DNA from: Pseudomonadota bacterium
Lineage (GTDB): Bacteria; Desulfobacterota; Desulfobacteria; Desulfobacterales; Desulfolunaceae
Direction: 5' to 3'
Length of the DNA: 64,000 bases
Assembly: GCA_018818835.1 (NCBI GenBank)
Contig: JAHIRD010000145.1
Span: 1 to 64,000, forward strand
The notes under the pieces are model-generated. The model saw only the letters and a program-made list of their open reading frames with translations, made no database searches and was not told the DNA's origin. Both the position numbers and the translations under genes were made by a program. The first letter of the stretch is position 1. Each line of letters starts with the position of its first letter. Positions 4,318-51,103 of the stretch are shown here, piece by piece.

Positions 4318-4905
4318 GGGTCACCTTTCAAAAGAGCTGATTAATATGCACTTCAAATGTTTTGACCCATGATCCCCATAATTCAGGAGGATGGGGTTGC
4401 CATCCTCCTGAATTATGGGGACCTGAGGCTCTGAACATAACTCCATCATTTGCAAGACATGGACCATGAAAAAATCCTGACCCTGAATCCAAGAGGCTTG
4501 AGAGCCTAATGATCTTTGTTATCAGTTTGTTGAACAAAAAAGTAAATAAAATTCAAGTTGAGAACCAGGGACCGAAAGAGGGGATACCAGAATTTAATAT
4601 GACATAAATGTTTCTATATAAGATGAAAAAGACAATTATGTGCAGTCTATGGACTTGAATAAATTGATTTCGATCCCGAAGGAACTAAATCCCAACAAAC
4701 GGATGCTCTGGACGCTGATTCTTCTCACCAGTGATCCTTGGTTATATACCCATGACCCTTCTCACAAGCATTCAAGTACTCCATTCATCACGCCGCCTAT
4801 CAGGGCTGCTTCACCTTGTTTTTATGGACGGGATCATATATATCTGTCTTTTTTGATATGATATCCAACAGATCAACGAATCCGACACAAACGATGATAA
4901 AAAAC
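4318..4905. other. Long intergenic region with a perfect 21-bp hairpin
   Basis: About 590 bases lie between the HEPN-like gene and hrpB. The only clear structure is the perfect inverted repeat at 4374-4420. Two short frames (4328-4537 minus, 4640-4861 plus) have no recognisable protein pattern and no ribosome-binding site, and are not called as genes. The promoter of hrpB is presumably within the last 250 bases but no strong box stands out. Confidence 0.5.
4374..4420. repeat. Perfect 21-bp inverted repeat
   Basis: Bases 4374-4394 are an exact reverse complement of 4400-4420, with a 5-base loop (GGTTG). The arms begin CCCCATAATTCAGG and end ATTATGGGG. The stem is far longer than a usual intrinsic terminator and lacks a flanking T-run. 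It lies about 60 bases upstream of the HEPN-like start, so it could be a leader structure, a binding site or a tiny mobile element. Confidence 0.85.
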
Positions 4906-7434
4906 ATGAGTGACCGACTCCCCATTGAAGACCATATTCCAGATATCCGCAAAGCCCTTGGGAAACATGGATGTGTTGTTATTGAAGCAACCCCGGGAGC
5001 AGGGAAGACAACCCTGGTGCCCCTGGCTCTTCTTGGCGAACCCTGCCTACAAGGGAAACACATCGTGATTCTGGAGCCCAGGCGTCTGGCTGCCCGTATG
5101 GCGGCCGCTCGCATGGCCTATCTCCTGGGGGAACCCGTTGGAAAAACAGTTGGTTATCAAATAAAAAATGATCGAAAAATCTCCCCTGAAACCCGAATTC
5201 ATGTCCTGACCGAAGGCATTCTGACCCGGAGGATTCAATCTGACCCACTGCTCCAACATACAGGCCTTGTGATTTTTGATGAATTCCATGAACGAAACCT
5301 GGTTTCTGATCTGGGCTTGGCCCTTTGCCTTGAAATCAAAGAGGCACTGAGGGATGACTTAAATATCATAATCATGTCAGCAACAATGGATTCCAAAGCA
5401 GTTTCCAGCATGATGGGCCAGGCACCTATCGTTTGTTGCGAAGGAAGGCAATTTCCGGTTGAAACCCGTTATCTGAAACGAAAAGCCATGGGCTCCCTTG
5501 AGAGAACATGCACTGACTATGTTGTTGAATCCCTTTCACGTCATGAAGGTGACATCCTTGTCTTTTTACCCGGAGCCGGTGAAATCAAACGGGTTTCTGC
5601 GCTGATTCATGAAAAACTCGATGACCCTGATGTATCGGTGTATCCCTTATATGGGAATCTGGATAAAAAAGATCAGGACTCAGCCATCAGACCATCTGGC
5701 CCTGGAAAACGTAAAATCGTTCTGGCGACCTCCATTGCAGAGACATCCCTCACCATTGAAGGTGTAAGAATCGTTATTGACGCCGGGTTTGTTCGAAGAC
5801 CACGATATTTTTCCGGAACCGGAATGAGTCGTCTTGAAACTCTGCCCGTATCCAAAGCAGGGGCGGATCAGAGACGGGGCCGTGCCGGACGACTGGGACC
5901 GGGAATCTGCTACAGGCTCTGGCCAGACGACGAAACAATTTTACATCAGGATTTTAGTTCACCTGAAATTTTAAACGTTGATCTTACATCGTTTGTTCTT
6001 GAACTCGCCCTTTGGGGCGTTCAGGATCCGGAGCAACTGAAATGGTTGGATCTCCCTCCCAAGGGAGCGTTTGGTCAGGCCCGTGATCTATTGATACGGC
6101 TCAAGGCCCTTGACATCACGGGCCACATCACAAGCCATGGGAAAACCATGGCCGGCCTGGGGGTTCATCCCCGTCTGGCCCATATGCTCTTGGTTGCCAA
6201 AACACTGGGAAAAGGCTCTTTGGCCTGCTTGATGGCGGCCTTGCTTCATGAAGGAGATTTTCTGATCCAAAAAGATCAGATCCGTGAATCGGATATCCGG
6301 ATACGGCTTCAAATTCTTGATGAATTCAAACGAAAAGAGATGTCGATACTCAACCGGACGCCCCTGAATAAAGGCCGAGTTAATGCCATACTTCAGAGTT
6401 CCTCACTCTTTGAACATAATCTTGGAATCACGCCATCTCGGATTTGTGATGACCATGCGGGCTTTCTCCTGGCCCATGCCTATCCCGAACGGATCGCCCT
6501 GGGTGTGGATAACAGAGGTTCCTTCAAGCTTGCTTCCAAAATGGCGGCGTATTTACAGGACACGGATCCCTTGGCACAGGAACCCATGATTGTGTGTGCG
6601 GACATGGACGGGAACCTTTCCCGATCAAAGATCTATCTGGCGGCACCCTATGACCGTGTTCAGTTTGAACAGGATTTCAAAGACCTGATTGAACAAAAAA
6701 CCAGCCTATACTGGGACGGGGTCACCATTGTGTCATCCATGCGTCGGACTTATGGTCAGCTTTTGCTTTCCGAAACCCCGTCACGATGTTCCGATGAAAG
6801 TCTTATAACGGCTCTGATGCTCCGTGTCATACAGGAGCAGGGCATAGATATTCTGCCATGGACACCACCCCTTAACCATATCCGAGACCGGGCCATTTTC
6901 CTCAAACAGATTGAATCCTTCGAGGACATTCCTGATTTAAGCAATCAAGCCCTGACCAAAACACTGGAGTTCTGGCTCGGGCCTTTTCTTTCAGGCATAC
7001 GATCCTTGAACCAGTTGAAAAAAATAGATCTATCATCAGCGCTTTTATCTCTTTTATCGTATCGTGAAAGGCAGACTCTTGATCACCATGCCCCTAGTCA
7101 CCTCAGGGTTCCCAGTGGGTCACGAATCCCTTTGATCTATACCTCAGAGGGACGTCATCATTCGTCCCCAATATTGGCTGTTCGACTCCAGGAGATGTTT
7201 GGATTGGTTGAAACACCCCGCATAGCCGCTGGGCGGGTTCCTGTCACATTGCATCTACTCTCTCCGGCAGGGCGCCCCATGCAGGTGACCCAGAACCTTG
7301 AAAGTTTCTGGAAAAGCACGTATGACCAGGTAAGAAAAGATCTGAAGGGACGTTACCCAAAACATTACTGGCCCGATGATCCCTTGAACGCCCGTGCCAC
7401 AAGCAGAACCAAGAAAAAAATGGATACACCATGA
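4906..7434 (+). CDS. hrpB: ATP-dependent helicase HrpB
   Basis: This DEAH-box helicase has all the expected motifs when counted from the ATG at 4906: Walker A (ATPGAGKTTLV) near residues 28-38, DEFHER near 115, SATMD, the motif V segment SIAETSLTIEGVRIVIDAG and QRRGRAGR. The winged-helix and C-terminal HrpB regions follow, for about 842 residues in all, the usual HrpB size. Upstream in-frame ATGs at 4816, 4858 and 4894 exist, but the protein they add is unlike the family. No start has a convincing ribosome site, so this choice rests on homology to MSDLPIE-type N-termini. The gene overlaps the following hydrolase gene by 4 bases (ATGA). Confidence 0.9.
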   Translation: MSDRLPIEDHIPDIRKALGKHGCVVIEATPGAGKTTLVPLALLGEPCLQGKHIVILEPRRLAARMAAARMAYLLGEPVGKTVGYQIKNDRKISPETRIHVLTEGILTRRIQSDPLLQHTGLVIFDEFHERNLVSDLGLALCLEIKEALRDDLNIIIMSATMDSKAVSSMMGQAPIVCCEGRQFPVETRYLKRKAMGSLERTCTDYVVESLSRHEGDILVFLPGAGEIKRVSALIHEKLDDPDVSVYPLYGNLDKKDQDSAIRPSGPGKRKIVLATSIAETSLTIEGVRIVIDAGFVRRPRYFSGTGMSRLETLPVSKAGADQRRGRAGRLGPGICYRLWPDDETILHQDFSSPEILNVDLTSFVLELALWGVQDPEQLKWLDLPPKGAFGQARDLLIRLKALDITGHITSHGKTMAGLGVHPRLAHMLLVAKTLGKGSLACLMAALLHEGDFLIQKDQIRESDIRIRLQILDEFKRKEMSILNRTPLNKGRVNAILQSSSLFEHNLGITPSRICDDHAGFLLAHAYPERIALGVDNRGSFKLASKMAAYLQDTDPLAQEPMIVCADMDGNLSRSKIYLAAPYDRVQFEQDFKDLIEQKTSLYWDGVTIVSSMRRTYGQLLLSETPSRCSDESLITALMLRVIQEQGIDILPWTPPLNHIRDRAIFLKQIESFEDIPDLSNQALTKTLEFWLGPFLSGIRSLNQLKKIDLSSALLSLLSYRERQTLDHHAPSHLRVPSGSRIPLIYTSEGRHHSSPILAVRLQEMFGLVETPRIAAGRVPVTLHLLSPAGRPMQVTQNLESFWKSTYDQVRKDLKGRYPKHYWPDDPLNARATSRTKKKMDTP

Positions 7435-39330: not shown

Positions 39331-40416
39331 TCATTCTTCGGTCAGTGACTTTATCACTTTGTCAGGTGAACATTTGGAACCGACAACAATTTCAATGTTT
39401 TTTTCGCCTTCCATTGGAATGACAATGATATTTTCATAGTTATCCTTATCAAAATAGGCTCCTTTGAAATTTCCGGCATCAAAATAGAAACCAAGTGCCG
39501 TTGCCTGAGCTGTAAAGGTGGACCAGACATTGCCTACTTTCAAGGATTTTAGATCCTTGTCAATATTGATCACATGTTTCAACTTCGATTTTGCAATATC
39601 TTCCGGCGAAACGGCACTATCATCCCAGCGCATCAGGGAATCACTTTTTTCAGCAGCCTGTTTCGGGGGTTGTGATATTTTACCATTGATAGGAACGTTG
39701 CTTTTTGGCTCTTCATTAAATTCTTCTTCAGTCGCACCATTCTCATCCTTCATACGCATGGAATCAAGTAAAATAGCTTGAAGCTCGTCACGTATTTCAC
39801 GATGATTGACGACACAGGCGTTTTCAATGGATAAGGTCACTTTATCCCAGGAGAAAATTTTATAGGCCGCTTTGGTTCCCAAGGTATTATTGTATCGTGC
39901 GTTAAACAGGTCCCCTTCAAAAAAGAACAATGTCCCTCGTTTTCTTGTTTTTTCATCTAAAACTCGTATTGTGCATGTTTTAGCTTCCATTTCGATAAGT
40001 TGAATGAACATCTCAAGGGAGGCGTTATTCAGCCGTCCCCCTTCTGTTTCACGTTTAACAAGATCATCAATACAATTGATAAGATCTTCCACAACCAGAG
40101 GCTTTGTAAAATATGCAAAGGCACCTGTTTTTTTTACAACACTTTCTGTCTTTGGTTTATCAAATGCTGTAATAACAATGACAGGGATATCGGGGAAATG
40201 CTTTTTAATTTTTTCTAACAGTGCATAGCCATCCATATTGGGCATCTGAAGATCAGTGATCACGATGGAGTAATTGTGACTTTTCAGTAGCTCAATGGCA
40301 TTGACACCGTTAATAGATGTATGTATTGAATATTTATCTTTATATTTATCAAATATTTTCGTAATAAGGTTAAGAAATGGCTGATTGTCGTCAACGACTA
40401 GAATATTATGTATCAT
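39331..40416 (-). CDS. Response regulator: REC domain plus PATAN (DUF4388) domain
   Basis: From the ATG at 40416 the 361-residue protein has a REC domain (residues 1-120; phosphoacceptor Asp55 in VITDLQMPNMDG, conserved Lys in YFTKPLV). A PATAN/DUF4388 region follows (about 128-225; SLEMFIQLIEMEAKTCTIRV, then GTLFFFEGDLFNARY and KAAYKIFSWDKVTLSI). A linker and a C-terminal alpha/beta part (about 275-361) of unclear family complete it. PATAN proteins act as partners of surface-motility and polarity GTPases. No DNA-binding domain is present, so the output is by protein contact. The in-frame start at 40446 adds only 10 residues. Confidence 0.87.
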   Translation of the reverse strand: MIHNILVVDDNQPFLNLITKIFDKYKDKYSIHTSINGVNAIELLKSHNYSIVITDLQMPNMDGYALLEKIKKHFPDIPVIVITAFDKPKTESVVKKTGAFAYFTKPLVVEDLINCIDDLVKRETEGGRLNNASLEMFIQLIEMEAKTCTIRVLDEKTRKRGTLFFFEGDLFNARYNNTLGTKAAYKIFSWDKVTLSIENACVVNHREIRDELQAILLDSMRMKDENGATEEEFNEEPKSNVPINGKISQPPKQAAEKSDSLMRWDDSAVSPEDIAKSKLKHVINIDKDLKSLKVGNVWSTFTAQATALGFYFDAGNFKGAYFDKDNYENIIVIPMEGEKNIEIVVGSKCSPDKVIKSLTEE

Positions 40417-40589
40417 AATTATCACCCGGTGTAAGTCCGTGCCCATCCATAAAAAAATTTAATCTTAATTTTCGGACAGTCACTAGTTATCTATGTAACC
40501 ACATGCATAGCAAAATGAATGCGTAATAGAATAAATGTATGTATCAAATTTTGATGTATGTGAAAACATGTAATGCTTAAATAATACAT

Positions 40590-41630
40590 TTAAGCTTTAT
40601 TTTTAATGAATTCAATCTCCCTCAAATATTTTTCTTCCCATGGACCGAGGTGTTTTTTTAACCATTTCTGCATTCCATTTTCACCGGCAATTTCGTTCAG
40701 ACATTCAACAAGGCCCGAAGCAAGTTTAGCCTTGTCCGTATTCCCGGTGTATGTAATTTTACCATTTGAATACATGAATTCTGCCGCAAAGGGATCAAGA
40801 AAATCAAACCTATCGACCTTTTCCATAAATTTACGTTTAAGAATTGTGTCAAAATCTTCACGAATTTTCCGGTTACCCACAATGAATTTTTCATAAATAA
40901 GCATCAAATGTTGAAGCATACCCATAATATTCAAGGGTTTTTCTACTTCGACAGGTTGGGCCGGAAGAATTGTTTCGATGTTTATTACGTCAGATGGGTT
41001 TACGTGTTCAGGACCTGTGTGGGTATAATTCTCAATGATCAGCTTTAATGGGATCTTCTTCACGTTTAAAATGGCACCTTTTGTCCGTGATTTATCGATC
41101 AACAGCTGCTGAAGGGCTTCGGTTCTGTTAAGCTGCCATTTGTCTTCTGATGTGGTGGTTCCGATAATCTCGCCATTTAATAAAAACAAAACCGCTTTTT
41201 CAGCCTTATTAAAGGTAACGTCAATATATCCGGTTAGCTTCTCAGAAACCATTTTTTTAATCAAACTATCAAGATCAGTAAATTCAGTGGATAAATCTTT
41301 ATGAAGATCTTCTGCATCAGCAAGATTTGCCCAGTATGTGATTCGTTCAGGAATAATTTCATAAATTGAAACTGAAAAATTATTTGAACCTGATTCTCCC
41401 ATCAAAAGATCAATCGCTTCTTTACCTTTGATCAAACTGGTTTTGTTTCTGAATGTTCCATTAATCAAATTTTCCTCATCAAAAAAAACAACGCCTTCTG
41501 ATGAGGGCGATTTGAAATAGATACAACCGGAATCAACAACGCCTTGATAATGCTCAAATAATTTATCTATATTCAAATAATAACTGTTCAAATTTGTAAT
41601 TAACGGGGTTTCTTTGGGTATAACTATCAT
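40590..41630 (-). CDS. Unknown protein with two PATAN-like segments
   Basis: The 346-residue protein has two segments with the PATAN/DUF4388 strand pattern: GVVDSGCIYFKSPSSEGVVF then NLINGTFRNKT near residue 35-65, and LTGYIDVTFNKAEKAVLF then NGEIIGTTT near 130-165. A C-terminal helical region (about 235-346) follows, with LQHLMLIYEKFIVGNRKIRED. No catalytic motif is seen. The match to PATAN is weak and by eye. It lies between the zinc-ribbon/HAMP gene (34 bases upstream) and the response regulator. Confidence 0.6.
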   Translation of the reverse strand: MIVIPKETPLITNLNSYYLNIDKLFEHYQGVVDSGCIYFKSPSSEGVVFFDEENLINGTFRNKTSLIKGKEAIDLLMGESGSNNFSVSIYEIIPERITYWANLADAEDLHKDLSTEFTDLDSLIKKMVSEKLTGYIDVTFNKAEKAVLFLLNGEIIGTTTSEDKWQLNRTEALQQLLIDKSRTKGAILNVKKIPLKLIIENYTHTGPEHVNPSDVINIETILPAQPVEVEKPLNIMGMLQHLMLIYEKFIVGNRKIREDFDTILKRKFMEKVDRFDFLDPFAAEFMYSNGKITYTGNTDKAKLASGLVECLNEIAGENGMQKWLKKHLGPWEEKYLREIEFIKNKA

Positions 41631-41663
41631 TCTACTTTTCAGCCTCCATACATAAATACGGTA

Positions 41664-42923
41664 TTATCTTCGGCGACGTAGTCGTTCGATGGAAAATCGA
41701 AGACTGTCCTGCATTCGGCTGATTGCTTCAGCAAGGGCACCGATTTCGTCGTTGGATTTGATCTCAATGACAACGTCAAGTTCACCAACACTGATTCGAT
41801 CCGCTGCCTCGGTGAGCTTTCCAATACTTCTGGAAAGCCTGTACCCATAAATTGTAATCGACAGACCAATGATGAGAAGAAGTGCAACAAGAATGACAAT
41901 ATTTATATTTCGTGTATTTTCAGTCAGTTTATGCGCTTCTTTTTCAAGCATCTTAATGGGTTCTGTAAAATCATCGATAAACGTCGTGCTGATGATCATG
42001 TATTTGCTTTGTTCAATGCATTCCGCAGCGACAAATTTTTCAGTGGTTATACCTTTGTCATCAGTCCATGTGTAATAACCGGAGTTGCCACCTCCTTTTC
42101 TGAGGGTGTTAATAACATCTTTAAAATTGTTGTAACTTGAACCCAGTGCTTTTTTGAAGGCCGGCAGAAGTGGTTGACCGATCAGAGCCTGATCAGGATG
42201 GCACCAAATGATGAAATGATCTTCGTTTTTGTCAGGATCAGGAAGTTCGATTAATGCAGTATAGCCCCGTTTCGTGCCAACCTCCTGAATTGAAATGCGG
42301 TTCAGTTCAAGATCATAATAAAAATCATCCTTATTTAAATCAGGATTGTTTTTTAGAAAAATAGAACATTGGGATGCAACGGATTTGGCTTTATCAATAA
42401 TACTCTGTTCTGCAAGTTTTTTAACGACTTCAGTACTTTTGAATGTAATATCACTTGCAAGTTTAAGCATCTGAAGTTGTGAAAAAACACCCGAGCCAGC
42501 CATAAGAAAAAGAGGGATAACAAGAAACAGAAAAAACATTTTTGTCCGCAAACCAATACCTGAGGTTTTTTTTGAAACGGATTTTTTTTTTGATGTTTTG
42601 GTTTCAACTAAATCAGTGTCTATCTTGTTGGCAATGGTTTCGTTCTGATCTGAGTCTTCCTCTTGATTATCCGGTGATTCTTCACTCACATCGGTTTCTG
42701 ATTCATCTGCCATTTGATCATTGGTATCATGTTGTGATTGAAATGGGACATGCTGGATATTCCCTGAAGACGTATCCAAATTATTTTCATCATCCAATGA
42801 AATGGTAATAACATGATCGCATACTCTGCATTTAATTTTGGAAGTTTTGCCTTTCATGCTGCTTTTAAGTTTTTCCGCATCAAGTTTGTAGACTTTTCCA
42901 CACTCTTCACAAATAACTACCAT
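41664..42923 (-). CDS. Membrane receptor: zinc ribbon, Cache-like sensor and HAMP, no output domain
   Basis: The 419-residue protein begins with an MJ0042-type zinc ribbon (Cys5, Cys8, Cys32, Cys35) in the cytosol, followed by an acidic stretch, a membrane segment near 130-150 (FFLFLVIPLFLMAGSGVF), a periplasmic domain of about 165 residues (150-315) with single-Cache-like features (SVASQCSIFLKNNP; GYYTWTDDKGITTEKF), a second membrane segment near 330-350 and a HAMP domain. It stops soon after HAMP with RRRR. There is no kinase, GGDEF or methyl-accepting domain, so signals must pass through HAMP contacts or the zinc ribbon. Confidence 0.85.
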   Translation of the reverse strand: MVVICEECGKVYKLDAEKLKSSMKGKTSKIKCRVCDHVITISLDDENNLDTSSGNIQHVPFQSQHDTNDQMADESETDVSEESPDNQEEDSDQNETIANKIDTDLVETKTSKKKSVSKKTSGIGLRTKMFFLFLVIPLFLMAGSGVFSQLQMLKLASDITFKSTEVVKKLAEQSIIDKAKSVASQCSIFLKNNPDLNKDDFYYDLELNRISIQEVGTKRGYTALIELPDPDKNEDHFIIWCHPDQALIGQPLLPAFKKALGSSYNNFKDVINTLRKGGGNSGYYTWTDDKGITTEKFVAAECIEQSKYMIISTTFIDDFTEPIKMLEKEAHKLTENTRNINIVILVALLLIIGLSITIYGYRLSRSIGKLTEAADRISVGELDVVIEIKSNDEIGALAEAISRMQDSLRFSIERLRRRR

Positions 42924-42967
42924 AATTAATGCTCCTTAAAATAATAAGAAAATAACTCGTTACACAT

Positions 42968-43429
42968 TTACATATTTTTCAGCTTCTTCAGCATGATCTG
43001 TTGGAACTGAATCTTCTTTTCATCTCTGGGGATTTCTCTTGCCAAGATATCCACAAGTTCAGCTGCACGATGCGTGGGTATCTTGTCTTTGGAAATCCCG
43101 ATTTCACGAATTTCATCTTCAATCAATATTTCAGCCATAGGCCCCATGGCAATGGAAAGGTGATTGGCAAGAAAATCAAAAAAATTATGATCAAGTGTTG
43201 GTACCGTGGCCACATCGGCTTCAATAAGATTCAAGCGGTCAAGTCTCTGCAAGGTTTCTTTCAAGGAATGCATGTCCACTTTCATGACTCTTGCGACTTC
43301 ACCTATGTTCCGGACACCATCAATATGCATCAAAACATTAAGCATCTGGCTATCCAGAGAAACTTCACCAATATTAGAGTTTACCACTCGTTTGATGACC
43401 ACGGATGCAATATTTGCAGAAAAATCCAT
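42968..43429 (-). CDS. Helix-turn-helix-like protein with DUF8082-like C-terminus
   Basis: The 153-residue protein has an N-terminal winged-helix-like region (DSQMLNVLMHIDGVRNIGEVARVMKVDMHSLKETLQRL, 28-67). The C-terminal region (NHLSIAMGPMAEILIEDEI; LVDILAREIPRDEKK) resembles a domain found at the end of regulatory proteins near roadblock GTPase systems. The winged-helix part may be a protein-binding rather than a DNA-binding module. No characterised homologue is recalled; function unknown. Confidence 0.6.
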   Translation of the reverse strand: MDFSANIASVVIKRVVNSNIGEVSLDSQMLNVLMHIDGVRNIGEVARVMKVDMHSLKETLQRLDRLNLIEADVATVPTLDHNFFDFLANHLSIAMGPMAEILIEDEIREIGISKDKIPTHRAAELVDILAREIPRDEKKIQFQQIMLKKLKNM

Positions 43430-43450
43430 GAATAAAACTCCAATATACGT

Positions 43451-44149
43451 TTATTTAAAATTCTTTTTTAAGGCTTCGATTTTCTGAGCAATCTCACGTT
43501 CTATATAATCATTGATTTCTTTTTGAATATCATCAGGTAGACTTGAAAAGTCCGGTTTGACTGCGGCTGTCGGCTGTTCGGGAACAAATGATTGAACCTC
43601 AACAGAAGAATAGGAGTTCGGGAACATACGTGCTTTAAGATTTTTGAAATTAGTGACTTCTTTCAAAATCATTTTATTCTTTTCGAACGTAGACAAATTC
43701 TTCGTAGTCACTTTTTCAAGGCTGTTGAAGACCTGATAAAGAAATTTTAAGGCATCAGGGTGTGCACGTACTTTTTTATGCAGCATATAAGTTCCAATGG
43801 AACTATGCAGTTTGAAGAAAAGATATATTGCTCGGTCATCTTTATACTGATTTTTTAGACGTCCTATTTCTTCAAGATATTTGTTTAGATTTTCATCCGT
43901 AAGTTCCCAGTCCATTTCAAGGACAATGACTTTCAACGTATCTAAGGGACCTTGCGGATTCTTATGAAATTTAGCCGATTGAGTATCCGGGAATGATTTT
44001 TTAACCTTGGGTTCATCCGATGAATCAATGATCATCTCATCAGAATGAATGTCAGACGATTCATCAAAAGATAGTTCATCATCCGCAAAAAAGTCATCCA
44101 ACCGACTGTCCAGTTCATCAAAAATGGAATTACCGTCATCATTGCTCAA
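43451..44149 (-). CDS. Unknown protein with acidic N-terminus, linked to the MglA-like GTPase
   Basis: The 232-residue protein has a strongly acidic, low-complexity N-terminus (residues 1-55). A conserved-looking helical core (about 68-165; LKVIVLEMDWELTDENLNKY, then SIGTYMLHKKVRAHPDALKF) is followed by a Pro-rich linker and a short C-terminal helix. No catalytic signature is seen. It starts 3 bases after the stop of the MglA-like GTPase, so it is almost certainly co-translated and functionally linked. Possibly an effector or adaptor. Confidence 0.65.
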   Translation of the reverse strand: MSNDDGNSIFDELDSRLDDFFADDELSFDESSDIHSDEMIIDSSDEPKVKKSFPDTQSAKFHKNPQGPLDTLKVIVLEMDWELTDENLNKYLEEIGRLKNQYKDDRAIYLFFKLHSSIGTYMLHKKVRAHPDALKFLYQVFNSLEKVTTKNLSTFEKNKMILKEVTNFKNLKARMFPNSYSSVEVQSFVPEQPTAAVKPDFSSLPDDIQKEINDYIEREIAQKIEALKKNFK

Positions 44150-44152
44150 TGG

Positions 44153-44779
44153 TTATTTCCCTCCCAGGTCTAGTTTCTCTTTTAAAGAAATAACGGTCAG
44201 AGAAATTATTTTTTTCATGGTCGCAGCAACATTTTCTCCAGTAACGGCACTTGCAGGAAAATATGATGCCTTTAGCGTACTATTCAGATCTTTTTCAAGC
44301 GATTCAATGGGCAGGATCGGAATACCCTGTTTACCAAGATCACGTTTATTATACTGGATGACAAGGGGGATACTATTCAGATCTTTGTTGAACGAAGCAA
44401 GATTTTCTCTGAGATTTTCAAGGGAACGAATATTCATTTCCTGTCTCAATGTCATTGAATCGGCGACAAAAACGATACCGTCAACACCACGTAGTACCAA
44501 CTTCCGGGTCGCGTTGTATTTAACCTGCCCTGGCACGGTATAAAACTGGATTTTAATTGTATATCCTTTTATCATTCCGATATCAAAGGGTAAGAAATCA
44601 AAAAAGAGCGTGCGGTCATTGTAGGTTTTTACTGTAACCATCTCACTCTTGATTCTACTTTTAAACTTTTTATTTATATATTCAAGATTCGTGGTTTTTC
44701 CACCCCTACCAGGACCATAATAAACAATTTTAACCTGAACTTCTTTTTTTTTGGGATTAATTAAAGCCAAAATGAACAC
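44153..44779 (-). CDS. MglA-like Ras-superfamily GTPase (GTPase 1)
   Basis: The 208-residue protein closely follows MglA. It has P-loop GPGRGGKTT (residues 22-30), DRTLFFDFLP with Arg56 (equivalent to the catalytic Arg53 of Myxococcus MglA), TVPGQVKYNATRKLVLRGVD with the catalytic Gln, and NKRD for guanine binding. MglA switches between GTP and GDP under its roadblock GAP MglB and sets cell polarity and type IV pilus use. The roadblock gene lies 61 bases upstream, so both are present. Catalytic residues are intact. Confidence 0.93.
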   Translation of the reverse strand: MFILALINPKKKEVQVKIVYYGPGRGGKTTNLEYINKKFKSRIKSEMVTVKTYNDRTLFFDFLPFDIGMIKGYTIKIQFYTVPGQVKYNATRKLVLRGVDGIVFVADSMTLRQEMNIRSLENLRENLASFNKDLNSIPLVIQYNKRDLGKQGIPILPIESLEKDLNSTLKASYFPASAVTGENVAATMKKIISLTVISLKEKLDLGGK

Positions 44780-44840: not shown

Positions 44841-45233
44841 TCACACGAGTTCCTTGATTTTATTGTTGGCCTCGGTAACTTTCAAACGCAAAAAGCCGAG
44901 GGATACGTCTTTCCCGAAAATTGTCAACAAAAGAAGGTCCGTTCCAATCTTGCTGAAATGGATACTGTCGTTTTCACCTTTATGGAAAAGTAGCGAGAAT
45001 TCTTCTTCACCAATAATGTTCGCCATTGCGCTTACAGCTCCAAAATTGGCTGCGGCGAGGGCTGCCAGCGAGTAAACGTCATGTTCACACCTCCCATTGT
45101 CAAGATTGACAATGACATTTCCTGCAAGGTCTATCAATACAACGCACTCAACACCTAACTCGATGAGCTCTTCTTCGAGAATTGCCTCGATTGATTCAAG
45201 CTGGCTTTTATTGAAATCAAAAGTAAAATCCAT
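44841..45233 (-). CDS. Roadblock/LC7 protein (MglB-like)
   Basis: The 130-residue protein has the roadblock/LC7 pattern: GVECVVLIDLAGNVIVNLDN, AALAAANFGAVSAMANII and TDLLLLTIFGKDVSLGFLRL. MglB homodimers of this fold act as GTPase-activating proteins for MglA. It lies directly before GTPase 1 and is the natural partner. A GAGGAT ribosome site precedes the ATG. It is the first gene of the 45233 to 35498 series after an AT-rich 284-base gap, so a promoter probably lies there. Confidence 0.88.
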   Translation of the reverse strand: MDFTFDFNKSQLESIEAILEEELIELGVECVVLIDLAGNVIVNLDNGRCEHDVYSLAALAAANFGAVSAMANIIGEEEFSLLFHKGENDSIHFSKIGTDLLLLTIFGKDVSLGFLRLKVTEANNKIKELV

Positions 45234-47931: not shown

Positions 47932-48264
47932 TCACATATGAAATTTTTTAATAAAAGAGGATAAAATGCCTTGGCATTCGCTTGTAACCGTCTTGAACTT
48001 GATCCCGGACTCGATCATCCCGTCCCCTCTTTTCCTTGAGTATATGACACTTCCTCTAATGTCGGCCATATCATTTTCAAATCCGATACTGAGAAGAATT
48101 GTGAAATCAGGATTAATAGAAACATGCGTTTCAAGAAGGATCCCCCCTTCGCTCACATCAATTGTTTTCCCCATGCCCTGCTGAACAACTTTATCTTTGT
48201 CATCTAAACACACATACGAAAGGAGATTCCCGGAATCAAATCTTCGATGCTTTCTATTGTCCAT
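47932..48264 (-). CDS. Small PilZ-domain protein
   Basis: The 110-residue single-domain PilZ protein has the RxxxR motif in NRKHRRFDSG (residues 3-12) and DVSEGG (about 37-42), both required for c-di-GMP binding and intact. It lies 29 bases downstream of the cNMP-binding protein gene and upstream of the phosphoesterase. It could relay c-di-GMP to the GTPase system. Confidence 0.9.
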   Translation of the reverse strand: MDNRKHRRFDSGNLLSYVCLDDKDKVVQQGMGKTIDVSEGGILLETHVSINPDFTILLSIGFENDMADIRGSVIYSRKRGDGMIESGIKFKTVTSECQGILSSFIKKFHM

Positions 48265-48293: not shown

Positions 48294-49445
48294 TTAAGCG
48301 CATGCTCTGCTTGTTGTTGCAGACAAACAAACCGTTGTATATTCAATGATGTTTTTAATGGTCACGGATAGTTTCGTGTATTCCTCAATCAACTTTTCAG
48401 TATCCAAAATCCCCAGCTTCAAATCCTCTGAGGCAAACACAGACGCAAATGACGGTTCATGGTCGATATTTAAAAAAGGTACACGTCCGATAAAATCTCC
48501 TTTTCCCAGGGTCATCAGATAAATCATACCATTTTTTGATTTTCTTACAATGTGTGCCTCACCATTTAAAATGGTAAACACCTTCTGGACATCATCTCCC
48601 TGGCGGATCATGGGTTTGATGTTCAGGGGCAGACCGTCAAATTTGTTATGTCCATTCAAGATATCCGTGTACCTGGAGGATATCTTCCTGAACCGGTTAT
48701 CAAGGCTCAGAAGAACTTTTTTAAATTCCGGATCAATGGTGGACATTTCACTTGAAAGCTGCTGGGTGTCGATTACTCCAAGTTGCACTGTTCCCCTTGC
48801 CACGGCAGAGGCACTCCTTGAATTTTCAGGCTGAAGTATGGTTGTCAGTCCGCCAATAAACGCTCCGGTACCACTTGAAGAAACAAGGGCCTGACCATGT
48901 TCTGTTTGTTTGAAGATATCAACGATTCCTTCAAGAATGACCCACAACCAGTTCCCATGCCGACCCTGGGCAACAATCGTTGCACCATCGGTGTACTCAT
49001 CCTCATCCACCACCGATGAATATTCCACAAAAGGGCCTTTAATGGCAGTGGTTATGGCTGGAGCAGATTTTATATCCTGGCCTGATTCTTTGGCCGAGGC
49101 GTCACCGAATGTTTCTATTCCCCCTTCATCCAGGACTCGTAAGGCATCCAGAACGATGGCCATCATTCTTTTCTTTATGACATCCTGATGTTTGACCTCT
49201 TCGGAATTAAATTCAAATTTACCAGAGACCCATCCAAAAAGAGCATATATGGCGTCAACACCGGTCTTATCTGAAGTCTGGGCATCAACGGGATTTCCGG
49301 ATTTTATATAGATCAGACCAGGGTCCTTAAAATGCGGATTGATAATTCGCAAAACACCTGTTCGATTATCTGTGCCAAGAAGCTGCAGAAGATCTCCAAG
49401 TGTTAAGAACGTCAGATTGCCTGCAAGTACTGTTTTGTTTTCCAT
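48294..49445 (-). CDS. PATAN (DUF4388) plus two cNMP-binding-like domains
   Basis: The 383-residue protein starts with a PATAN/DUF4388 domain (1-100; GNLTFLTLGDLLQLLGTDNRTGVLRI, then GLIYIKSGNPVDAQT). Two cyclic-nucleotide-binding-like beta-barrels follow (about 130-255, with GATIVAQGRHGNWLWVILEGIVDI; and about 270-370, with MIRQGDDVQKVFTILNGEAHIV). There is no DNA-binding domain. The usual phosphate-binding cassette signature (GE-R-A) is not clearly conserved in either repeat, so ligand binding is uncertain. It starts 9 bases after GTPase 2 ends. Confidence 0.82.
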   Translation of the reverse strand: MENKTVLAGNLTFLTLGDLLQLLGTDNRTGVLRIINPHFKDPGLIYIKSGNPVDAQTSDKTGVDAIYALFGWVSGKFEFNSEEVKHQDVIKKRMMAIVLDALRVLDEGGIETFGDASAKESGQDIKSAPAITTAIKGPFVEYSSVVDEDEYTDGATIVAQGRHGNWLWVILEGIVDIFKQTEHGQALVSSSGTGAFIGGLTTILQPENSRSASAVARGTVQLGVIDTQQLSSEMSTIDPEFKKVLLSLDNRFRKISSRYTDILNGHNKFDGLPLNIKPMIRQGDDVQKVFTILNGEAHIVRKSKNGMIYLMTLGKGDFIGRVPFLNIDHEPSFASVFASEDLKLGILDTEKLIEEYTKLSVTIKNIIEYTTVCLSATTSRACA

Positions 49446-49454
49446 TCGTATGTT

Positions 49455-50066
49455 TTACTGTGACCATTTCAGTTCACGCTGAAGAGATATCAGGGTGAGC
49501 TTTAAACATTCTTGAAGGGTATTCCCAACACCTGTTCCTTTGATGGCACTTGCCTGAAACGAAGGAACCTTGAGCTGTCTGTTCAAATCACGGCCCATCT
49601 TTTCCACAGACATGATGGGCATCCCTTCATCAGCCAGGTCCCTTTTGTTATATTGCATAACCAGCGGAATCCGAGAAATATTCAAACCATAATCCTTGAG
49701 GTTCTGCTGGAGATCTTTTAATGAAAGCATGTTTTTTTCTCGTCTGACTTCAAGGGAATCGGCAACAAAAACGATTCCATCCACCCCTTTGAGGACAAGC
49801 TTTCGTGTCGAAGAATATTTTTGCTGGCCTGGCACGGTAAATATCTGAACACGGACATCGCACCCTTTGATTTTCCCAAGTCCTATGGGCAAAAAATCAA
49901 AAAAAAGCGTACTGTCGCCTTCTGTATCAACCGAAACCATTTCTCCGGTAACCTGTTTTTTGAATGCCTTGAAAAGATATTCAAGATTCGTTGTTTTTCC
50001 GCAACGACCAGGGCCGTAATAGACGATTTTACATTCGATTTCCCGTTTTTGGATATTAAATATTGC
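49455..50066 (-). CDS. MglA-like Ras-superfamily GTPase (GTPase 2) with Arg53 replaced
   Basis: From the ATG at 50066 the 203-residue protein aligns with MglA: P-loop GPGRCGKTT (19-27), TVPGQQKYSSTRKLVLKGVD and NKRD. The segment that reads DRTLFFDF in MglA and in GTPase 1 reads DSTLFFDF here, so Ser53 replaces the catalytic Arg53. The Gln of TVPGQ is retained. Loss of the Arg would lower GTP hydrolysis unless a partner supplies it. No roadblock gene is directly adjacent; its neighbours are a PATAN-cNMP protein and a TPR/PilZ-like protein. Confidence 0.92.
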   Translation of the reverse strand, partial: AIFNIQKREIECKIVYYGPGRCGKTTNLEYLFKAFKKQVTGEMVSVDTEGDSTLFFDFLPIGLGKIKGCDVRVQIFTVPGQQKYSSTRKLVLKGVDGIVFVADSLEVRREKNMLSLKDLQQNLKDYGLNISRIPLVMQYNKRDLADEGMPIMSVEKMGRDLNRQLKVPSFQASAIKGTGVGNTLQECLKLTLISLQRELKWSQ

Positions 50067-50152
50067 CATTTTAGTCGCAATTCCCACATTCAGATATATA
50101 AATTAACAGGTTTACTGCATTATACAGTCAGAAACAAAATAATCAAATAAAA

Positions 50153-51103
50153 TTAAATACTGTGAATTTTGATATCAAGGCTGTAGTCGCCTCGTTTTGG
50201 ACCAGATTCAATCCGTGTATTTGCTTCAACGATACCCGAGCCTTTAAAAATAGCGATGGGCGAATAAAAATCCATATCATCAAGACGCACACCAATTTTG
50301 AGGCTGTCAATAAGCAGTTTATCCTTGCTTGATACAATGAGACTTAGGACGTTGCCGGCTTGAAAGCTGACATCAAGTTCCACATGTTCTCCTTGTTTAG
50401 GGCCATGATTAAATCGAATGCCGATGGATGTAATGTCAATGATATCCTCATCGTCCTGATCCATAAAACTATTTCCCAAAAGGCCGGTGTCTTCTTCTTT
50501 TTCTTTATCTTCGATATCAACATCGGTATCCAGGCTTATGGACAAACCTTTTTTTGTGATGATATCCTGAAGAAACTGTTTGACAATAAGTCCTTTATCA
50601 TTGGGGAAAAAGTTCTTGTTCATCCACTGGTGGTACTGGGTCACCGCATCATCTAAAGACGAAACCTCAATAATACACTTCAGAGAATTTTTGGCCGCTG
50701 GGACACAGACCGAATCAATCCGTATCAACTGATTGAATTCTTTGATCGCACGTTTGTACTGGCCAAATTTTGCAAGAGTAATGGCGCTTTTCAATGACTT
50801 GACAACATCATTGTCCTTTTTTTCTTCGGGTGTAAAAAGCTTTTTGATGAGGTCTTGTACTTTAGGTGAAACTTCAGGTGTGCTTGAGGATTTATCCCAT
50901 CTGACAATCCCGGTGTCCAGTGTGCTTATTTTTTTAGTGATGGCATTGATCAAACTTTTCCGATTGGGGATCTGTTCATTGTTTTGAATAAGTTTAATGG
51001 CCTCAAGGTATTTACTTTTCGATTCCTTAAGAAGACGCTGTGATTTATAAAGGTCTGCTTCTTTTAAAAGCGACTTGACTCTATCCTTAATACTCATTGA
51101 CAT
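50153..51103 (-). CDS. TPR-like protein with C-terminal PilZ-like beta domain
   Basis: The 316-residue protein has helical TPR-like segments (residues 5-55 and about 100-160; LAKFGQYKRAIKEFNQLI), an acidic linker with DKEKEEDTG, and a C-terminal beta-rich domain (about 215-316) that resembles PilZ. The DITSIG segment corresponds to DxSxxG but with Thr for Ser, and no RxxxR is obvious, so c-di-GMP binding is doubtful. It is the first gene of the second sub-cluster (51103 to 46492). Confidence 0.65.
   Translation of the reverse strand: MSMSIKDRVKSLLKEADLYKSQRLLKESKSKYLEAIKLIQNNEQIPNRKSLINAITKKISTLDTGIVRWDKSSSTPEVSPKVQDLIKKLFTPEEKKDNDVVKSLKSAITLAKFGQYKRAIKEFNQLIRIDSVCVPAAKNSLKCIIEVSSLDDAVTQYHQWMNKNFFPNDKGLIVKQFLQDIITKKGLSISLDTDVDIEDKEKEEDTGLLGNSFMDQDDEDIIDITSIGIRFNHGPKQGEHVELDVSFQAGNVLSLIVSSKDKLLIDSLKIGVRLDDMDFYSPIAIFKGSGIVEANTRIESGPKRGDYSLDIKIHSI

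Follow-up and report, generated by a model that had tools for sequence, protein, structure and literature searches.

An MglA-type GTPase with serine in place of the catalytic arginine is fixed in the Desulfoluna family

We analysed a stretch of 64,000 nucleotides, hereafter the window (contig JAHIRD010000145.1, positions 1 to 64,000), from a bacterium of the Desulfoluna family, order Desulfobacterales. It encodes two MglA-type small GTPases in separate cassettes, here called GTPase 1 and GTPase 2. The features that bear on their comparison are the following.

44153..44779, minus strand: GTPase 1, MglA-type, with Arg53; a paralogue of GTPase 2 in a separate cassette
44841..45233, minus strand: roadblock/LC7 protein (PF03259, 1.8e-7), coupled to GTPase 1 and not to GTPase 2
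47932..48264, minus strand: PilZ protein of the GTPase 2 cassette (PF07238, 6.5e-6), with Asn36 replaced by Asp
48294..49445, minus strand: DUF4388 (PATAN) and cyclic-nucleotide-binding (cNMP) protein (PF14332, 1.2e-17; PF00027, 9.9e-25)
49164..49166, minus strand: codon 94 of the PATAN protein, Met in place of a conserved Arg
49455..50069, minus strand: GTPase 2, MglA-type small GTPase with Ser53, 204 aa from the ATG at 50069
49911..49913, minus strand: codon 53 of GTPase 2, AGT (Ser) in place of the catalytic Arg
50153..51103, minus strand: TPR-like protein upstream of GTPase 2 (weak TPR matches; synteny)
51035..51037, minus strand: codon 23 of the TPR protein, Arg in place of a near-invariant Gly

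The open reading frame of GTPase 2 spans 49455-50087 on the minus strand. It begins with a GTG at 50087, which is a possible start, and the MglA-like start is the ATG at 50069. A plus-strand reading of 49455-50066 was rejected because of its many stops. Residues 52-59 of GTPase 2 read DSTLFFDF, and a gap-free phmmer alignment with M. xanthus MglA (6hjh, 6h17 and 5ymx; E about 3e-58) pairs Ser53 with the Arg of DRTLFFDF. Arg53 is found in MglA of both M. xanthus and T. thermophilus. The serine-for-arginine replacement pointed out in a preliminary description of this DNA was thus borne out, as were the segment DRTLFFDF in GTPase 1, which lies on the minus strand, and the retention of Gln82 (TVPGQ) in both GTPases. 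The two proteins also share GKT, Asp58 and NKRD, and GTPase 2 keeps the P-loop GPGRCGKT and Thr54. The structure modelling that the same description had proposed confirmed an MglA fold for GTPase 2: the AlphaFold model (pLDDT 82) has the GTPgammaS-bound M. xanthus MglA 6h17 as its top Foldseek match (TM 0.86/0.91), and the MglA proteins of M. xanthus and T. thermophilus are its closest PDB relatives by sequence as well as by predicted fold. Switch I, modelled at low confidence (pLDDT about 61) and without nucleotide or partner, is uninformative on catalysis. Compared with these two MglA proteins, GTPase 2 is alike in fold (TM 0.86-0.91 to 6h17), with about 50% identity, and in its P-loop, TVPGQ, NKRD and all switch residues but one; it differs in having Ser for the catalytic Arg53 and in a cassette without a roadblock GAP. 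An arginine placed elsewhere at the active site could in principle have compensated for the loss, and GTPase 2 does have Arg22 in its P-loop. However, Arg22 also occurs in 101 of 112 Arg53 sequences; it is therefore ancestral, does not compensate for the missing Arg53 and was rejected as a substitute finger.

In a published survey of this protein class, the Arg was conserved in all Group 1 members, which carry TVPGQ, while Groups 2-5 have Thr at that position together with GTPGQ (PMC4316618). GTPase 2 belongs with Group 1 by its homology to MglA in sequence and fold, by TVPGQ in G3, by its P-loop, Mg-binding Thr54 and Asp58, Gln82 and NKxD, and by its nesting among Arg53 members in a tree built without Groups 2-5. 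The signature of Groups 2-5, Thr for Arg with GTPGQ, is absent from it. What it lacks is the Arg beside the conserved Thr of G2, where Ser53 stands, and by combining TVPGQ with Ser it is an exception to the published Group 1 rule. A pattern consisting of [D/E]-(non-Arg)-TLFFD and, after it, a short hydrophobic-Pro motif matched 27 stretches in about 85,000 GTDB species genomes, and the true MglA-like ones are a subset of these; since the pattern cannot detect Lys, Gln, Glu or Trp at residue 53, nor certain codons, the count is a lower bound. The Desulfoluna family contributed seven Ser53 genes and one Cys53 gene. The others were a Ser53 gene from the Desulfobacteraceae MAG L079, a single gene with Asn53 (L058), and three remote cases of Ser53; in one of these three, L056, the P-loop is lost as well. 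This last protein (L056 2527-3456, minus strand, from a deltaproteobacterial MAG), with both P-loop and TVPGQ destroyed (GSLATTAATD, TVVTAKEY), is a probable pseudo-GTPase as judged from its motifs. MglA proteins with Lys53 (KGDKTLFFDF) were seen at two further loci, L036 and L043, both with an adjoining roadblock gene.

Ser53 was present in all 8 Desulfoluna-family genomes, which represent three genera, and in none of the 144 orthologues collected across the rest of the order, all of which have Arg53. The tree places the Ser53 clade (100/97) within Arg53 orthologues, beside L083 (Arg). The Ser53 protein of L079 branches apart from it, indicating two origins, and masking residue 53 still gives two changes. 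The dN/dS ratio within the Ser53 clade, calculated from unsaturated dS only, is about 0.01-0.03 and similar to that of Arg53 controls. Ser53 is encoded by AGC and AGT in the family and by TCC in one genome, and its maintenance across these codons argues for selection on Ser itself. Arg53 orthologues share 84 conserved columns, and of these only residue 53 is lost in every Ser-clade protein. Strong selection thus maintains the R53S substitution, which has become fixed in a single family of sulfate reducers, and GTPase 2 is a true, rare, selected active-site variant of a known switch type.

The preliminary description had paired GTPase 2 with the roadblock protein at 44841-45233, a pairing that the genomic comparison does not support. 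The protein is the only Robl_LC7 match in the window's genome, and its gene adjoins GTPase 1 in nearly every family examined, so that across families the roadblock tracks GTPase 1. No roadblock gene was found in the flanking DNA examined around GTPase 2 orthologues of other families, and none in that of the Ser/Cys/Asn53 loci L056, L058, L062, L078, L079, L152 and L153. Moreover, among 52 sampled genomes, nearly all of them with a GTPase 2 orthologue, 16 lack any Robl_LC7 match. In the window, five genes separate GTPase 2 from the roadblock gene, beyond the four-gene limit used to define an MglA/MglB GTPase-GAP module. The two cassettes are adjacent only in the Desulfoluna family, and this peculiarity accounts for the pairing originally suggested. 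Downstream of the roadblock-GTPase 1 pair lies a run of minus-strand genes (39331-44149) that is conserved in the family and in part beyond it. The run encodes three uncharacterised proteins, the third of them following a zinc-ribbon/HAMP membrane protein, and a response regulator that carries DUF4388. The window's genome encodes two further MglA-type proteins, one with Arg53 (C156, L004) and one with Cys53 (C317, L002). The latter (G000:C317:31650-32246) and its counterpart L012 read EGDCTLFFDY, with TGC at codon 53 and TVPGQ intact; they form a clade of their own (100/99) from two genomes, with no roadblock gene nearby.

The GTPase 2-type cassette is widespread in the order. In other families the gene order is TPR, GTPase 2, PATAN/cNMP, usually PilZ, in some cases a phosphodiesterase, and then PurC and ParB-like, and in the window the PATAN/cNMP gene begins 9 bases past the GTPase 2 stop. 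We screened the cassette for columns with a conservation of 95% or more in Arg53-type genomes that all family members have lost. Such losses comprised R53 and L76 of the GTPase, R94 of the PATAN protein, G23 of the TPR protein and N36 of the PilZ protein; the control PurC, from the same cluster, had lost 0 of 107 conserved columns in the Desulfoluna family, and the same screen in five other families returned no losses or conservative ones only. The PilZ change, N36D, also occurs in 8 Arg53-type genomes and was rejected as a specific co-change. Of 141 Arg53-type genomes, 137 have PATAN Arg94, whereas none of the 9 Ser53 genomes has it, among them L079, which has Gln. All four exceptions (L123, L160, L239 and L245, from two related families) have Leu94 despite an Arg53 GTPase. 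In the window and in L064 the PATAN segment reads KKRMM, with an Arg one position earlier. Among Arg53-type genomes, 134 of 135 have Gly at TPR residue 23; in the family, all 7 complete sequences have Arg there. The co-change evidence comes from two lineages, one family and one MAG (L079): an independent-pairs test of the joint loss of R53 and R94 comprises 2 pairs only and has no power, and of the 43 conserved PATAN columns L079 lacks 4, which puts the probability of a chance coincidence at residue 94 at about 9%. The PATAN protein was rejected as an arginine donor, since its conserved Arg94 was lost, not gained, in both Ser53 lineages. Its domain model (pLDDT 81) had no PDB neighbour at E < 0.001 and thus gives no indication of a roadblock-like fold.

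How might such a switch work? The active site of MglA consists of Arg53 and Gln82, and the action of MglB is to bring Arg53 into it (PMC6876712, PMC6785124, PMC11016934). With Arg53 absent, this route is closed for GTPase 2. We propose, with a probability of about one half, that GTPase 2 is the roadblock-independent switch of its cassette, in which a selected R53S substitution leaves slow hydrolysis by Gln82 only, a long GTP-bound state and timing by partners. In the Desulfoluna family Ser has taken the place of the intrinsic arginine finger, and selection has kept it there. With GTP binding and effector surface both intact, GTPase 2 most likely still switches. Judged from sequence, finger-less hydrolysis is most likely slow, and the longer-lived GTP state that the preliminary description had suggested is plausible and consistent with the evidence. 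Timing would most likely be set by nucleotide exchange and by the TPR and PATAN/cNMP partners, not by a roadblock GAP. As these partners changed at conserved sites of their own on the same branch as R53S, the whole cassette may have been retuned.

A challenge to slow hydrolysis comes from Groups 2-5, whose members lack the Arg. In MfpB and CvnD of Group 2, as in GTPase 2, a Ser/Thr-type residue and not Arg precedes the Mg-binding Thr, and MfpB, reported to have no Arg53 equivalent (PMC13015309), hydrolyses GTP with a roadblock GAP and is stimulated by MfpD (PMC9769811). Slow turnover in the cell is therefore not a necessary consequence of losing Arg53. With Gln82 kept and Ser53-Thr54 resembling the Thr-Thr of Groups 2-5 (PMC4316618), GTPase 2 could have near-normal stimulated hydrolysis, a partner merely ordering the active site. 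We nevertheless consider this unlikely: in Groups 2-5 the Thr is paired with GTPGQ and not with the TVPGQ of GTPase 2, MfpB and CvnD have unusual G4/G5 motifs where GTPase 2 has NKRD, and the helpers of these groups are roadblock proteins, encoded in the conservon in the case of MfpB and CvnD and unlinked to the GTPase 2 cassette. Sharing of the GTPase 1 roadblock GAP, suggested by the two cassettes lying side by side, is very improbable, given that this juxtaposition is limited to the Desulfoluna family, that the roadblock gene adjoins GTPase 1 and lies five genes from GTPase 2, and that MglB acts by placing the very residue that GTPase 2 is missing (PMC6876712).

The preliminary description also raised the possibility of a partner that supplies an arginine, for which the TPR protein, with G23R, is the one candidate. 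It might insert Arg23 or otherwise act as the GAP of GTPase 2: Arg23 arose on the same branch as R53S, replacing the near-invariant Gly in every complete family sequence, and M. xanthus TPR proteins bind MglA-GTP (PMC7519303). On the other hand, this is one evolutionary event only; L079, with its independent Ser53, has no such TPR gene, and Gly is retained in the TPR part of the TPR-PilB protein encoded beside its GTPase; and SgmX, the known TPR partner, is an effector and not a GAP. We regard a trans-acting arginine as quite unlikely, and somewhat less likely still the fuller version, in which the finger moved from switch I of the GTPase to the TPR partner (R53S, G23R) and PATAN Arg94 was released, within a roadblock-free MglA system. 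If true, a bacterial Ras-like GTPase would here have exchanged an intrinsic arginine finger for an extrinsic one in the course of evolution. Least likely of all is inconsequential loss of the Arg by drift in a redundant paralogue under relaxed constraint. GTPase 1 and the two other MglA-type proteins could provide redundancy, and one paralogue has itself changed to Cys53, but drift is already contradicted by the strong purifying selection seen in the low dN/dS, in the holding of Ser across codon types and in the loss of residue 53 alone from the conserved columns.

Under the proposed slow, partner-timed switch, R53S would be a real change in switch timing, and a testable one. The fixed and selected exception, together with its co-changed partners and the Arg53 orthologues of sister families, makes up a natural experiment on how MglA-type switches turn off without a roadblock GAP. 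The Ser53 case also singles out the TPR and PATAN/cNMP proteins as candidate regulators of this widespread cassette. A partial parallel is SofG of M. xanthus, likewise an MglA paralogue for which no cognate roadblock GAP was identified in the 2014 survey; it differs in having kept the Arg (PMC4316618), and a later paper reports that MglB acts on it (PMC11016934).

The output of the cassette probably concerns type IV pili, by analogy with systems in which TPR or PATAN proteins, the kinds encoded beside GTPase 2, act on the pilus. In M. xanthus, MglA-GTP binds the TPR effector SgmX, promoting pili (PMC7519303), and cyanobacterial PATAN regulators bind PilB (PMC10519157, PMC7690835); proteins of both types thus act on type IV pili elsewhere (PMC7519303, PMC10519157). 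The TPR and PATAN proteins of the window are short, with architectures unlike those of SgmX and the PilB regulators, and a pilus role here is suggested by likeness. In L079, a TPR-MshEN-PilB-type ATPase (4845-7271, plus strand; PF00437, 7.9e-121) is encoded divergently from the Ser53 GTPase, a direct genomic link between a Ser53 GTPase and a type IV pilus motor, and pilM is present in the window's genome.
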